From the NCBI GenBank assembly GCA_963169885.1, contig CAUJFR010000152.1, forward strand, positions 1 through 34,954: 34,954 bases of DNA, read 5' to 3'. The DNA comes from Bacteroidota bacterium. GTDB taxonomy: Bacteria; Bacteroidota; Bacteroidia; Chitinophagales; Chitinophagaceae. Below are positions 7,218 to 30,512 of this stretch, piece after piece. Each line of letters starts with the position of its first letter. Within the stretch, counting starts at the first letter, position 1. A model generated the notes under the pieces. It searched no databases, was not told where the DNA came from, and worked only from the letters and a program-made list of their open reading frames with translations. Both the position numbers and the translations under genes were made by a program.

Positions 7218-7242
7218 AAAAGGCGGCTTCGCCGCTTATTTT
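7218..7242 (+). terminator. Hairpin terminator after the ThuA gene
   Basis: A GCGGC-TTC-GCCGC stem, extended by a G-U and an A-T pair, is flanked by an A run before and ATTTT after. It begins 11 nt downstream of the ThuA stop and is well placed to end the three-gene operon. Confidence 0.65.
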
Positions 7243-7243
7243 A

Positions 7244-7360
7244 AACACATAACATCATAGAGTCATAGGAGACACATAGAGCATGAGATAGCCTATTTGT
7301 TAAAAACATAGCAACATAGAGTCATAGGACACACATAGAGCAAGAGATAGCCTATGTGTT
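7244..7360. repeat. Two direct copies of a ~59-bp repeat with internal hairpins
   Basis: Two imperfect copies lie at 7244-7301 and about 7303-7360, with a period of 59. Each contains AGTCATAGG, ACACATAGAGCA and GAGATAGCCTAT. In the second copy ACACATAG (7331-7338) pairs with CTATGTGT (7352-7359). The outer AACACATA (7244-7251) also pairs with TATGTGTT (7353-7360), so the whole block can fold. It fills the gap between the convergent ThuA and atpC genes. No ORF is supported here. Confidence 0.8.
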
Positions 7361-7392
7361 AAAATAACCGCGAAGCGAAAAGCGGCAGGCAC

Positions 7393-23666: not shown

Positions 23667-23674
23667 CAAAGGTA
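23667..23674 (-). promoter_or_regulatory. Bacteroidota-type -7 element for engB
   Basis: The minus strand reads TACCTTTG, 4 nt before the ATG, giving a nearly leaderless transcript. There is no TTTG at -33; the heptamer array fills that position, ending 3 nt upstream of the box. Confidence 0.6.
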
Positions 23675-23677
23675 GAG

Positions 23678-23836
23678 ATTAGAGTTGAGGGTTGGAGATT
23701 CGAGGTTGGTGGTTGGAGGTTGGAGGTTCGAGGTTGGAGGTTCGAGGTTGGAGGTTGGAGGATGGCGGTTGGAGGTTCGAGGTTGGAGGATCGAGGTTGG
23801 AGGTTCGAGGTTGGAGGCAGAGGTTGGAGGCAGAGG
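23678..23836. repeat. Heptamer array between engB and menG (about 20 units)
   Basis: An unbroken 7-base period runs from 23678 to 23817, with units mainly TTGGAGG and TTCGAGG, often alternating. It then passes into CAGAGG, TTGGAGG, CAGAGG to 23836. Units decay toward engB (TTGGAGA, TTGAGGG, ATTAGAG). On the minus strand the next unit in register reads CTCTACC and supplies the first half of the engB -7 box. No ORF through it is credible: the translations are 7-residue periodic in every frame. Confidence 0.95.
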
Positions 23837-27117: not shown

Positions 27118-27155
27118 GGGTATTGGCTTTGACTAATTATTTCAATGTACAAGAT

Positions 27156-28499
27156 ATGCAAAATTACCTGATCCGGAATATACAGCTCGTCAATGAAGGA
27201 ACGATCCGTACGGCAGATGTGTTGCTGAAAAACGGCCGGATTGAACGGATCGGCGGACAACTCAATGAATCCAATGCAGCGGTTACTGAAATCAATGGCG
27301 AAGGAAAATATTTATTACCGGGTTGTATTGATGATCAGGTGCATTTCCGGGAACCCGGTCTGACTCATAAAGCCAGCATTGGTACTGAATCTAAAGCAGC
27401 AGTGGCCGGAGGTGTAACCAGCTTTATGGAAATGCCTAACACAATTCCCAATGCCCTGACCCAGGATTTACTGGAAGAAAAATACCAGATCGCAGCCCGT
27501 AGTTCAGTGGCGAACTATTCTTTTTTCATGGGTACAGCTAATAACAATACCGACGAAGTGTTGCGGACCAATGAAAAAAAGAAAGATATCTGTGGTATAA
27601 AAATATTTATGGGCAGCAGTACCGGCAATATGCTGGTCGATAATCCGAATACCCTTGACCGGGTGTTCAGGGAATCCGAAGTGTTGATTGCCACCCACTG
27701 TGAGGACGAAACCATCATCAAACGGAACCTGGACCGGCTGAAGCAAGAGGGCCGTGAACTGATACCTGCCGATCATCCCATCATACGTGATGAGGAAGCC
27801 TGTTACGAATCCTCGCTATATGCCATCCAGATCGCTAAAAAATACGGTACCCGTTTACATATCCTGCATATCAGCACCGCCAGGGAACTCCGGTTATTCA
27901 CCAATTTGTTCCCCCTGAAAGATAAACGCATCACCACTGAAGTCTGCGTACATCACCTGCATTTTACCAGCGATGACTATGCGCAGCTGGGCAATAAGAT
28001 CAAATGCAACCCCGCTATCAAGGCCCCGCATAACCGGGAAGGATTATGGGAAGCCCTGCTGGATGACCGGCTGGACATTATTGCCACGGACCACGCCCCG
28101 CATACCTGGGCAGAGAAAGATGAGCCTTATGAAAAAGCCCATGCCGGTCTGCCCCTCGTACAGCATTCCCTTTTACTGATGCTACACTATGTTAAACAAG
28201 GAAAGATAACCCTCGAAAAAGTGGTGGAAAAAATGAGTCATGCACCGGCCGACTGTTTCCATGTAAAAGAAAGAGGCTATATCCGTGAAGGCTATCATGC
28301 CGACCTGGTGATTGCTGACCTGAATGCACAGTATACTGTCAGCAAAGAAAATATACTTTATAAATGCGGCTGGAGTCCGCTGGAGGGATTTCAATTCCCC
28401 GCCAGCATACAAAATACCTTTGTAAACGGGCATATGGTGTATGGAAACGGGGTGGTGAATGAATCTCAGTGGGGGGAGCGGTTAGTGTTTGACAGATAA
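27156..28499 (+). CDS. pyrC: Dihydroorotase
   Basis: An amidohydrolase that closes carbamoyl aspartate to dihydroorotate in pyrimidine synthesis, 447 residues. The start is ATG 27156 (MQNYLIRNIQLVNEG); eleven in-frame codons upstream, from a TTG at 27123, lack family similarity. Motifs: DDQVHFREPGLTHKASI, GIKIFMGSSTGN (possible carboxylated Lys), ATHCED, HILHIST and TDHAPHTWAEKD. The first metal motif reads Q-V-H instead of the usual H-x-H. I recall the same in other Bacteroidota dihydroorotases, but could not check. Other binding residues look intact. Confidence 0.93.
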   Translation: MQNYLIRNIQLVNEGTIRTADVLLKNGRIERIGGQLNESNAAVTEINGEGKYLLPGCIDDQVHFREPGLTHKASIGTESKAAVAGGVTSFMEMPNTIPNALTQDLLEEKYQIAARSSVANYSFFMGTANNNTDEVLRTNEKKKDICGIKIFMGSSTGNMLVDNPNTLDRVFRESEVLIATHCEDETIIKRNLDRLKQEGRELIPADHPIIRDEEACYESSLYAIQIAKKYGTRLHILHISTARELRLFTNLFPLKDKRITTEVCVHHLHFTSDDYAQLGNKIKCNPAIKAPHNREGLWEALLDDRLDIIATDHAPHTWAEKDEPYEKAHAGLPLVQHSLLLMLHYVKQGKITLEKVVEKMSHAPADCFHVKERGYIREGYHADLVIADLNAQYTVSKENILYKCGWSPLEGFQFPASIQNTFVNGHMVYGNGVVNESQWGERLVFDR

Positions 28500-28510
28500 C
28501 CGGGAACGAA

Positions 28511-28573
28511 GCATCAAGATACAAGATACAAGAACCAAAGAAGATACAAAATTCAAAAAACAAGAAGCATCAA
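28511..28573 (+). repeat. Heptamer array, left of the four-helix-bundle gene (consensus GATACAA)
   Basis: GCATCAA, GATACAA twice and GAACCAA are consecutive. After a 4-nt slip GATACAA, AATTCAA and AAAACAA follow in phase. The block is bracketed by GAAGCATCAA at 28508-28517 and 28564-28573. It starts about 10 nt after the pyrC stop. Confidence 0.8.
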
Positions 28574-28666
28574 CGGGAGAGTCCCTGGCGGAAAAAACAG
28601 TATAAAACTGAGAAAAAAACGGTGAATAACTGGTGAATTGAACATTTATATGAAAAGCAGGTGATT

Positions 28667-28674
28667 TAGGTTTG
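28667..28674 (+). promoter_or_regulatory. Bacteroidota-type -7 element for the four-helix-bundle gene
   Basis: TAGGTTTG lies 9 nt before ATG 28684, so the gene carries its own promoter between the flanking repeats. No good -33 box. Confidence 0.5.
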
Positions 28675-28683
28675 AATAAAAAA

Positions 28684-29046
28684 ATGGAACCCCGGAAAAT
28701 TTATGATCTGGAAGAAAGAACAGCATTATATGCAGAAAGAATCAGGGATTTTTGTTTTACACTTCCTAAAAATGAGGTGAATAACGAATATATTTCACAG
28801 CTTTTAAGAGCAGGATCTTCACCAGGCAGCAACTATATTGAAGCCAATGAAAGTATTGGTGATAAAGACTTCCTGATGAAGATAAAAGTATGCAGACGGG
28901 AAGCAAAAGAGTCTTCATATTGGCTTAGACTTGTTATCACAAATAATACACTTGACGCAGAAAACGAAAGATCTGCTTTAAGGCAGGAAGCAAAAGAATT
29001 AGTTTTGATTTTCACCTCGATCATTAAGAAAAGAGGTGAAAGCTGA
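28684..29046 (+). CDS. Four-helix-bundle protein (S23/IVS-encoded family)
   Basis: A 120-residue helical protein of the family first found in intervening sequences of Leptospira 23S rRNA genes (TIGR02436 type) and related in fold to the Avd accessory protein of diversity-generating retroelements. Signature parts: RIRDFCFTLPKNEVNNEYISQLLRAGSSPGSNYIEAN and DFLMKIKVCRREAKESSYWLRLV. Family members form pentameric barrels; their cellular job is unclear. The start is ATG 28684 (MEPRKIYDLEERT), not the TTG at 28672. No reverse transcriptase or rRNA is near. The gene stands alone between inverted heptamer arrays. Confidence 0.88.
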   Translation: MEPRKIYDLEERTALYAERIRDFCFTLPKNEVNNEYISQLLRAGSSPGSNYIEANESIGDKDFLMKIKVCRREAKESSYWLRLVITNNTLDAENERSALRQEAKELVLIFTSIIKKRGES

Positions 29047-29152
29047 CCGGAAAACAACTTTGAGATTTATCACAAATTGCAATTCGGATCACAAGGCTAA
29101 AAAACCGCAACTAAGTAAGTTTTTGATTTTATTTGGAGTCTGGGCTTTGATG

Positions 29153-29188
29153 CTTCTTTGGTTCTTGTATCTTGTTTCTTGGAATTTG
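29153..29188 (-). repeat. Heptamer array, right of the four-helix-bundle gene, inverted
   Basis: On the plus strand units ending in TTG repeat every 7 bases (TTCTTTG, GTTCTTG, TATCTTG and so on to GAATTTG). They end 7 nt before the ATG of the MutS-like gene. 29153-29175 is the exact reverse complement of 28521-28543. No separate promoter is seen, so the array is the only candidate for promoter contacts of the MutS-like gene. Confidence 0.8.
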
Positions 29189-29195
29189 AAAAGTT

Positions 29196-30512
29196 ATGCA
29201 AATCGACCACACATCCTTCAACGACATCTCTATCTTCCACCCGGAAGAGGAATTCTCCATATTCCATAAGCTGAACTTTACCCGCACGGTGGGTGGGCGG
29301 GAATGGTTGCGGAAATTTTTTACAGAACCGCACAATGACCTGAATAAGATCCGTGGCACCCAGAAAGTGATCCGGACCTTTATGGAACATATCCAGCACT
29401 GGCCTTCCGACATCAGTAATGGCACCGTACTGGTGATGGATAAATTTCTTGATTACCCGATCGATCCCATCAATGAAAGTCCGGCTTCCTTCAATAACCT
29501 GTTGTACAAGTGGCTGCACCATGCGGACTATTCGATGATCAAGTATTCCATGCCGCATTTCGGCGATTTTTACCGGGGCCTGCGGAAGGTGTCGGAGCTG
29601 CTGACCGATCTTGATCTGCCTCCCGCCATCAAATTGTTTGTTGATCGTATCAACGGCATACTGAAAGAACCACCATTACAGAAACTGGCGGAAACGCAGC
29701 GGGGAGAGCGGCTCAGTGCCCGGCAGAATCTTTATTTCGCCTTTCATCTCCGGGGGCGTTATAAAAATAATACGCTGGAACTGATTGATATATTCAGCCG
29801 GCTGGATGCCTGGTACTCGATGGCCGTGGCGGTGAAAACCTATAAGCTCAGTTTCCCGGAATTTGTGGAACAAAACACACCACTGGTAGATGCCAGAGGA
29901 TTGTATCATATTCTGCTTCCCGTCCCTGTGCCCTATGACCTTCAGATGAATCCGGAACAGAATTTCGTGTTCCTTACCGGGGCAAATATGGCCGGCAAAA
30001 GCACCCTGATCAAATCTGTAGGTGCGGCCGTATTCCTCGCGCATATCGGTATGGGTGTGCCCGCCCAAGATATGAAGCTGACCCTGTTTGACGGACTGCT
30101 CAGCAATATCAATGTAGTGGATAATATTGCCAAAGGAGAAAGCTTTTTCTTCAATGAAGTACAACGGATCAAAAATACCATTGAAAAAATAAATAACGGA
30201 AAAAAATGGCTGGTGCTGATCGATGAACTGTTCAAAGGCACCAATGTACAGGATGCCATGAAATGCTCGCTGACCGTAATCAAGGGACTGATCAAAATCA
30301 AAAACTCCCTGTTCATCCTTTCCACCCATTTGTACGAGATAGGGGAAGAACTGAAAACCTATCCGAATATTTCCTTCCGGTATTTTGAAACCAATGTCAC
30401 TGATGAACAGCTCTCTTTCAGCTACCAGCTGCGCGAAGGCATCAGCAATGACCGGATCGGCTATGTGATTCTGAAACGGGAGAAAGTGGTGGAAATGCTT
30501 GAAAACTTATAG
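29196..30512 (+). CDS. MutS-like ATPase lacking the mismatch-recognition domain
   Basis: A 438-residue protein of the MutS family with the lever/core region (about residues 1-230) and the C-terminal ABC-type ATPase: Walker A GANMAGKST near 263-271, the FFFNEVQRIK segment, Walker B LVLIDELFKGTN, and STHLYEIGEEL with the switch His. The N-terminal mismatch-binding and connector domains of MutS are absent. The protein is therefore probably not the canonical repair MutS; it may act on DNA structures such as recombination intermediates, as for other MutS2-like or short MutS paralogues. No Smr domain is present. Intact, cytoplasmic, apparently monocistronic. Confidence 0.88.
   Translation: MQIDHTSFNDISIFHPEEEFSIFHKLNFTRTVGGREWLRKFFTEPHNDLNKIRGTQKVIRTFMEHIQHWPSDISNGTVLVMDKFLDYPIDPINESPASFNNLLYKWLHHADYSMIKYSMPHFGDFYRGLRKVSELLTDLDLPPAIKLFVDRINGILKEPPLQKLAETQRGERLSARQNLYFAFHLRGRYKNNTLELIDIFSRLDAWYSMAVAVKTYKLSFPEFVEQNTPLVDARGLYHILLPVPVPYDLQMNPEQNFVFLTGANMAGKSTLIKSVGAAVFLAHIGMGVPAQDMKLTLFDGLLSNINVVDNIAKGESFFFNEVQRIKNTIEKINNGKKWLVLIDELFKGTNVQDAMKCSLTVIKGLIKIKNSLFILSTHLYEIGEELKTYPNISFRYFETNVTDEQLSFSYQLREGISNDRIGYVILKREKVVEMLENL

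Follow-up and report, generated by a model that had tools for sequence, protein, structure and literature searches.

A widespread, probably mobile, transposase-free element resembling intervening sequences: inverted heptad arrays around an S23-family four-helix-bundle gene

The spacer between the genes for dihydroorotase (pyrC) and a MutS-like ATPase in a Bacteroidota bacterium of the family Chitinophagaceae holds a single small gene enclosed by two inverted arrays of seven-base units, an arrangement that raises the question of whether gene and repeats constitute one element and, if so, whether that element moves. Our analysis of the window (the whole 34,954-nucleotide stretch of contig CAUJFR010000152.1) and of related loci leads us to conclude that the element is real, widespread, mobile and similar to the intervening sequences (IVS) of 23S rRNA. 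The original prediction that a perfect 23-bp inverted repeat lies here within heptamer arrays is borne out by the sequence: the left copy (28521-28543, forward strand) and the right copy (29153-29175, reverse strand) are exact reverse complements, and Tandem Repeats Finder reports a period of 7 on either side, with 7.7 copies on the left (28515-28565) and a short array of 2.7 copies on the right (29163-29181). The complete arms measure 59 nt with a complementarity of 75%, the 5' arm (28515-28573, forward strand) being a 7-nt-phased array (AAGATAC AAGATAC AAGAACC ...) and the 3' arm (29123-29181, reverse strand) its inverted partner. Their best ungapped core (28515-28543 with 29153-29181) matches at 28 of 29 positions, and the left arm ends on its inner side (28562-28573, forward strand) with AAGAAGCATCAA, a 12-bp perfect inverted repeat whose partner lies at 29147-29158. 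Four inverted repeats score at least 15 in the 35-kb window, as compared to one in the mirror control, and that of the element is both the strongest and the most 7-periodic among the four.

As had also been predicted, an S23/IVS-family gene stands alone between the arms. The element encodes no transposase. This four-helix-bundle gene (S23/IVP; 28672-29046, forward strand, starting at TTG 28672 or ATG 28684) matches both PF05635 (E 1e-10, 42.3 bits against a cut-off of 33.8) and TIGR02436 (E 2e-19, 69.6 bits against a cut-off of 24) above the respective cut-offs. It is flanked by two co-directional genes on the forward strand, pyrC upstream (27123-28499), 15 nt beyond which the left arm starts, and the MutS-like ATPase downstream (29196-30512), which begins 14 nt past the right arm. 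The -7 box of Bacteroidota promoters has the consensus TAnnTTTG, and the predicted box of the gene itself is present as TAGGTTTG (28667-28674, forward strand); the frequency of the motif over the locus, however, does not exceed chance (4 found versus 2.5 expected). It likewise precedes the start of the gene in two (L041 and L054, not L050) of three further filled copies at this site, and the element may have its own promoter via a motif that is no more frequent than expected.

Short-unit arrays also occur elsewhere in the window. About 20 GGTTGGA-type heptads (23673-23830) lie in the 5'-terminal part of a reading frame, taken to encode an engB-type GTP-binding protein, where they give rise to a repeated PPTSNLQ peptide with no S23 gene. 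Two short arrays, one of 7-nt TACTCAT units (654-689) and one of 8-nt GGTTAACA units (1955-1989), lie at both ends of one gene, presumably queA; the former resembles the arm unit of L004, another S23 locus of the same genome.

The AlphaFold2 model of the window protein consists of four helices (mean pLDDT 92), and the closest solved folds retrieved by Foldseek are 2rld, an S23-family protein of Bacteroides, and 2gsc, Xcc0516 of Xanthomonas campestris. The bAvd protein of a diversity-generating retroelement (4dwl) follows with weaker E-values and a TM score of 0.69-0.78, listed among unrelated helical bundles. The S23/Avd-type fold forms pentamers, with which the five chains in each of the crystal entries 2rld and 2gsc agree; the median arm length is 33 nt, or about five heptads, and our hypothesis is that each subunit reads one heptad. 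Differences at the three codon positions (136/79/449 over 17 gene pairs and 1862 codons) indicate that the protein is maintained by purifying selection, which could alternatively mean that it serves a host function. Genes of this S23/four-helix-bundle type are found in 289 of the 392 sampled Bacteroidota genomes and in many other phyla, and we know of no function assigned to those in intergenic positions.

The architecture recurs within the window genome itself, a 3.6-Mb draft that is 84% complete and has nine PF05635 matches: inverted arms score at least 15 at all nine genes (those of L004 being weakly periodic), while their units differ from locus to locus, e.g. GAAAATA (L003), the 8-nt ACAATTCG (L005), GTACGAA (L007) and AAGATAC (window). 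For the genus, we compared the upstream flank with the reverse-complemented downstream flank by alignment at 38 loci, comprising the nine of the window genome and 29 others that are the top-scoring gene of each genome and not a random draw; L015, a duplicate of L001, was left out. The two flanks score at least 14 in 32 loci and at least 12 in 36, as compared, at the threshold of 14, to 3.1% of 1406 cross-locus pairs and 3 of 38 loci in direct orientation, thereby indicating that the similarity is between the two arms of the same gene and seldom extends to those of other genes. The signal is weaker in the general Bacteroidota sample, where 14 of 30 best-scoring loci reach this threshold (4.8% of cross-locus pairs, 3 of 30 in direct orientation) and several loci have 8-nt units. 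Most of the homologues examined share such borders, a check that the original prediction had proposed.

A further scan covered 774 kb in 40 same-genus regions that were picked to hold the gene (47 gene matches, one gene counting as two pieces, and part of the loci overlapping with the 38-locus set) and took every ungapped inverted repeat with a span of up to 1.8 kb. At a score of at least 16, it yielded 63 inverted versus 9 mirror repeats, and, with loops of at least 250 nt, 38 versus 3, an S23 gene lying inside 29 of these 38. Four of the 47 gene matches (two of them in L110, one of these two at a region edge) have no ungapped inverted repeat scoring at least 12, and gene-free short-loop heptad hairpins are frequent in the same regions. 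Other genes inside long inverted repeats were considered as well and set aside. Seven of these nine non-S23 cases fall in L103, L117, L127 and L133; in six of the nine, arrays from separate intergenic regions pair with larger genes between them, another (L117, 12563-12956) surrounds an 84-aa membrane-like frame, and the long inverted repeats of L121 and L130 show no heptad periodicity. In three stretches of these regions (L117 9700-13100, L127 7100-8750 and L133 7050-8420) one heptad type occupies successive intergenic regions, as if it were spreading locally about a gene.

The sequence of the arms also follows that of the protein. Among the 136 loci with arms, and after exclusion of all pairs whose alignable DNA exceeds 700 bp (9084 pairs being left), arm similarity correlates with protein identity with a Mantel r of 0.53, a value as high as which was reached in none of 300 permutations; mean arm similarity rises from 0.15-0.16 below 25% protein identity to 0.41 at 60-70% and 0.48 above 70%. 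Inside the genus the correlation amounts to 0.21 (1667 pairs), and the phylum sample, with its 80 pairs, shows no trend (0.05). Moreover, in pairs of loci whose flanks have no further blastn match at 1e-20 within the available flank sequence, homology spans the arms and then ends: L252 and L256 are 84% identical over 479 bp, L243 and L266 (Deltaproteobacteria and Phycisphaerae) 75% over 481 bp, and L297 (Patescibacteria) and L304 (Deltaproteobacteria) 74% over 481 bp, in each case over the element only.

How far the element reaches beyond Bacteroidota was addressed by scanning an alignment of the window clade against GTDB representatives, many of the loci deriving from metagenome assemblies. 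Of the best 80 of 547 loci, 77 had enough flank, with some redundancy (L264 equals L265, and L233, L234 and L237 equal the genus loci L041, L050 and L054). Among these best-scoring loci the arms score at least 14 in 57 and below 14 in the other 20, as compared to 6 of 77 in direct orientation; the cross-locus score is high (35% of 5852 pairs) because a unit is shared across phyla, e.g. (AAATTCG)(AAGCACG)(AAATCCG)(AAATTCG)(AAACAAA). At least 14 is also reached by 42 of the 52 loci whose titles do not name Bacteroidota (four of the 52 being titled just 'bacterium'), and the non-Bacteroidota loci with arms include Patescibacteria, Planctomycetes, Deltaproteobacteria, Verrucomicrobia, WOR-3, Omnitrophota and Chloroflexi. 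As judged by eye, in many of 27 loci the element fills the spacer, its ends directly adjoining the stop codon on one side and the start of the following gene on the other. Eight genomes outside Bacteroidota have between 1 and 17 gene matches each, in part pieces of one gene. Phages gave just two partial S23 matches, and plasmid records 25; heptad arrays surround the gene in eight of the nine plasmids examined, three from Nostoc and one each from Anabaena, Dolichospermum, Planktothrix, Pseudanabaena and a Chloroflexota, so that all eight Cyanobacteria and Chloroflexota plasmids bear them and the single Bacteroidota plasmid, from Bernardetia (L225), has neither arrays nor an inverted repeat around its S23 gene. 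In three cyanobacterial plasmids the S23 genes and their heptad arrays lie within defence loci, annotated as between csx2 and cas1 (L221), between cas2 and cas1 (L222) and between drmD and pglX (L226).

Heptad arrays and the gene also co-occur at the level of genomes. In 20-kb samples that were not picked for the gene, arrays of period 7 or 8 scoring at least 12 number zero in 796 kb from nine genomes with no detectable S23 gene and 21 in 768 kb from nine S23-bearing genomes (period 7 in 17 cases and period 8 in 4), the two groups being unmatched in size, GC content and coding density; the AT-rich gene-less genomes G174 and G413 are also free of arrays. Eight of the nine S23-bearing genomes contribute, G231 having no such array in its samples, and the pooled control periods 5, 10, 11 and 13 gave 5 arrays in the gene-less genomes and 1 in the S23-bearing ones. 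The co-occurrence is not merely due to the arms of the genes themselves, since 18 of the 21 arrays lie more than about 800 bp away from any S23 copy. The three S23 genes caught by chance in these samples all stand between inverted repeats, two of which are 7-periodic and one of which (L206) is not.

The original prediction had proposed relatives with empty sites as a check on mobility, and such sites were found at three places. The MutS-like gene is present in 28 of 42 genus genomes, and in 25 it has pyrC next to it; the spacer holds an S23 gene in 4 of these 25 and just 10-153 bp in the other 21. The copy in G035 lies in the opposite orientation, and its four-helix protein is only 69% identical to that of the window as compared to 91-94% for the flanking proteins, whereas in G018 and G012 the four-helix proteins are 71% and 67% identical though the flanking ones are 76-84% identical. 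By eye, some nine of the 21 spacers that lack the gene consist of heptad-like hairpins whose sequence is different. The spacers L046-L048 and L056 are gene-free and carry another hairpin type (e.g. GAACGCAGAT ... ATCTGCGTTC). At a second place (site 1, L138) the S23 element of G027 corresponds to a gene-less hairpin with similar heptads in G030 and to a single arm in G034, with no hairpin or arm evident in G003, G014 and G024; in G001, whose flanks are 88-89% identical, the same site holds a frame of the GxxExxY family (TIGR04256), with one internal stop, between CGCAAAG inverted repeats. At a third (site 2, L135) the S23 gene of G003 belongs to one clade and those of G001 and G027 (flanks 79-88% identical) to another; the heptads of the two clades differ and the elements have no blastn match to each other, G014 and G034 are empty and G030 apparently retains one arm. 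These patterns are most simply read as elements having been gained or replaced repeatedly in the same spacers. Two features of transposons and insertion sequences were thus found, terminal inverted repeats and presence or absence at a site; no target-site duplication was identified at gene-free sites which, as judged by eye, are too diverged to place the junction to the base. Taken as a whole, the mobility of the element is well supported.

Orientation and predicted folding favour a role at the level of RNA. Both neighbours are co-directional with the gene in 61 of the 67 cross-phylum loci (of 76) at which both were found, and both antisense in one; in the genus the corresponding figures are 19 and 5 of 34 loci (of 38), some of the loci in either set being close relatives and hence not independent. 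In the predicted fold of the window transcript, the arms pair to close a stem that encloses the gene (z -6.6 versus 20 shuffles). Mismatches between the arms show no excess of G-U over A-C (136 versus 122, p 0.42; 57 versus 33 in the two genus sets and 51 versus 67 in the cross-phylum set), and so give no overall signal of selection on RNA pairing; nor does Rfam assign any family at gathering score to the six loci searched.

We regard it as likely that 28515-29181 represents a copy of an IVS-like mobile element of about 0.5-0.7 kb, which has a single gene and no transposase and whose protein recognizes its own phased repeats. The comparisons show the architecture, its specificity, the co-variation of arms and protein and the presence of the element at various sites and in various phyla, whereas we infer that the protein recognizes the heptads, what the stem does, and by which enzyme or transposition chemistry the element moves. 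The ends of such an element would be inverted arrays of phased units of 7 nt (8 nt in some clades), about five per arm, and the protein would bind its own phased repeats as nucleic acid, thereby keeping unit sequence and protein matched. In the transcript, base pairing between the arms would create a long stem whose loop holds the gene, much as in 23S rRNA intervening sequences, a supposition prompted by the nearly invariable sense position of the cross-phylum element between co-directional genes; this stem-loop form would render insertion into an operon tolerable and could also be the form that is recognized for mobility. Given that no transposase or reverse transcriptase is encoded in the element, we presume that enzymes of the host or acting in trans move it, and solo heptad hairpins may represent relatives that are non-coding or have lost their interior and that rely on the protein. 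The general proposal of a small mobile unit made of a four-helix gene and inverted heptad borders has hence been corroborated by shared borders, gene-free sites and an origin other than duplication; as for the recognition of the heptads by the protein, protein-heptad covariation and the co-occurrence of arrays and gene speak for it indirectly.

Other explanations have to be weighed against this one. Coincidence or local duplication at a single locus, which calls for nothing beyond simple repeats existing in the genome, is refuted by the cross-locus, direct-orientation and mirror controls and by recurrence in many phyla, with borders that track the protein across them. It is improbable, too, that heptad hairpins arise from another process (slippage and hairpin-templated correction, or an unknown enzyme) and that four-helix genes simply settle in their loops: such a history would suit the commonness of gene-less solo hairpins, the heptad types common to neighbouring intergenic regions around other genes, and the contrast at site 1 between the gene-less hairpin of G030 and the gene, with its similar heptad, of G027, but it fits poorly with arm sequences that track the protein clade at unrelated sites, with the lack of heptad arrays in the 796 kb sampled from nine gene-less genomes, and with element homology that passes through the arms and then stops.

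A more serious contender, albeit still an unlikely one, is a domesticated regulator, i.e. a host post-transcriptional system whose protein would bind phased repeats in leaders and spacers in the way that TRAP reads spaced triplets, the solo arrays being its regulon. The patchy occupancy, the replacement by another clade at one site, the inverted copy and the up to 17 gene matches per genome, some with internal stops, all look selfish instead; the sense position between co-directional genes, purifying selection on the protein, the gene-distant arrays seen only in S23-bearing genomes among the samples taken and the five chains per crystal entry of the relatives are nonetheless what a regulator would lead one to expect. 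By far less probable is a satellite of a diversity-generating retroelement or of another reverse transcriptase, with the protein as an Avd-like partner. The link to Avd that had been suggested stands as a resemblance in fold, the match to bAvd (4dwl) being its basis, and goes no further: identity amounts to 14%, the element has no visible reverse transcriptase, template or variable repeat, and RVT_1 is found in 6 of 42 genus genomes, going undetected in 25 of the 30 that bear S23 genes and in the window genome (G000, 84% complete). The suggested analogy with REP elements and their transposase-like partner fares no better than a general likeness, with no Y1 transposase detectable in 12 of the 30 S23-bearing genus genomes, and the searches of the genus genomes consequently lend no support to either enzyme as a required partner.

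The mobile element that we favour can be set beside several known systems. Intervening sequences interrupt 23S rRNA at helix 9, 25 or 45, and, as in these, the terminal inverted repeats of the window element form a predicted stem around one S23 ORF; unlike them, it is intergenic, lying between pyrC and MutS-like genes and not in rRNA, and a conserved 23S motif, used to catch classical cases, is found in none of 357 loci. The IVS of Coxiella burnetii is described, in the available part of the source, as selfish, horizontally acquired and sporadically distributed, situated in helix 45 with a 28-bp terminal stem and the S23 ORF in the loop, and cleaved by RNase III in vitro (PMC4990558). Intergenic elements differ from it in often having several gene matches per genome and in arms that are 7-8-nt phased arrays differing by protein clade, and the available part of that description makes no mention of heptads or intergenic copies (PMC4990558). 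Intergenic heptamer repeats have been reported in Xanthomonas and Nostoc, with 70 inverted pairs in X. campestris (PMC4692102), and TAACTGA repeats in intergenic regions of Beggiatoaceae, Cyanobacteria and Bacteroidetes (PMC4679880), with no settled explanation in the portions of either paper at hand. They resemble the present arrays in being intergenic 7-nt tandem units, some in inverted pairs, whereas those same portions name no S23 gene and the arrays studied here are the ends of a gene-bearing element (PMC4692102, PMC4679880). The lineages concerned also have S23-fold proteins, namely Xcc0516 (2gsc) of X. campestris and those of the Nostoc plasmids, and we found no paper in the open-licence full text of PMC, as distinct from subscription papers and preprints, that joins S23/four-helix-bundle genes with heptamer arrays. 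REP/RAYT systems and MITEs feature short intergenic hairpins, presumed to be non-autonomous, that are tied to a gene bounded by the same repeats. Solo heptad hairpins are similarly intergenic, short and presumably non-autonomous; in contrast to REP/RAYT, the element has a PF05635 gene and no Y1 (HUH) transposase between its arms, and its ends are phased short-unit arrays, varying by locus and clade, instead of the single palindrome of REP.

A comparable arrangement is seen around the GxxExxY genes, presumably relatives of PD-(D/E)XK proteins, which occur in 24 of the 42 genus genomes. Of 30 loci (L328-L357), 27 were scored, two having been left out and one dropped for a short flank, and arms of at least 14 are present in 21 of these 27, against 5.8% of 702 cross-locus pairs and 4 of 27 in direct orientation. 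By eye, many have units of 8-10 nt (e.g. CGCAAAGA and ACACAGATT), and several loci have a common, not locus-specific, arm motif (GAACCATGATT). Two unrelated protein families thus have a similar inverted-arm architecture, and the design is probably wider than one protein. The window itself contains a 59-nt tandem repeat (7241-7364) with ACATAG-type units, like those in the arms of the GxxExxY locus L348.

These findings do not only bear on one spacer of one genome but also suggest a testable role for heptamer repeats and S23 genes alike, in which the repeats would be the cognate site of the protein and the protein the keeper or mover of the repeats. At its broadest, and as a tentative proposal that we consider possible without holding it to be probable, there would exist transposase-free elements whose ring-forming, Avd-like protein reads the phased heptads at their ends in a clade-specific manner and which probably move via a folded transcript; the heptamers of Bacteroidota, Cyanobacteria and Xanthomonas would be their ends and remnants, 23S rRNA IVS a special case, and GxxExxY elements a second family. 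In particular, our results suggest a far wider class of intergenic elements of which the 23S rRNA intervening sequences are part, and they suggest that spread may be possible for a mobile element that encodes no transposase or reverse transcriptase itself. The element may help account for the unexplained seven-base repeats of bacterial genomes.
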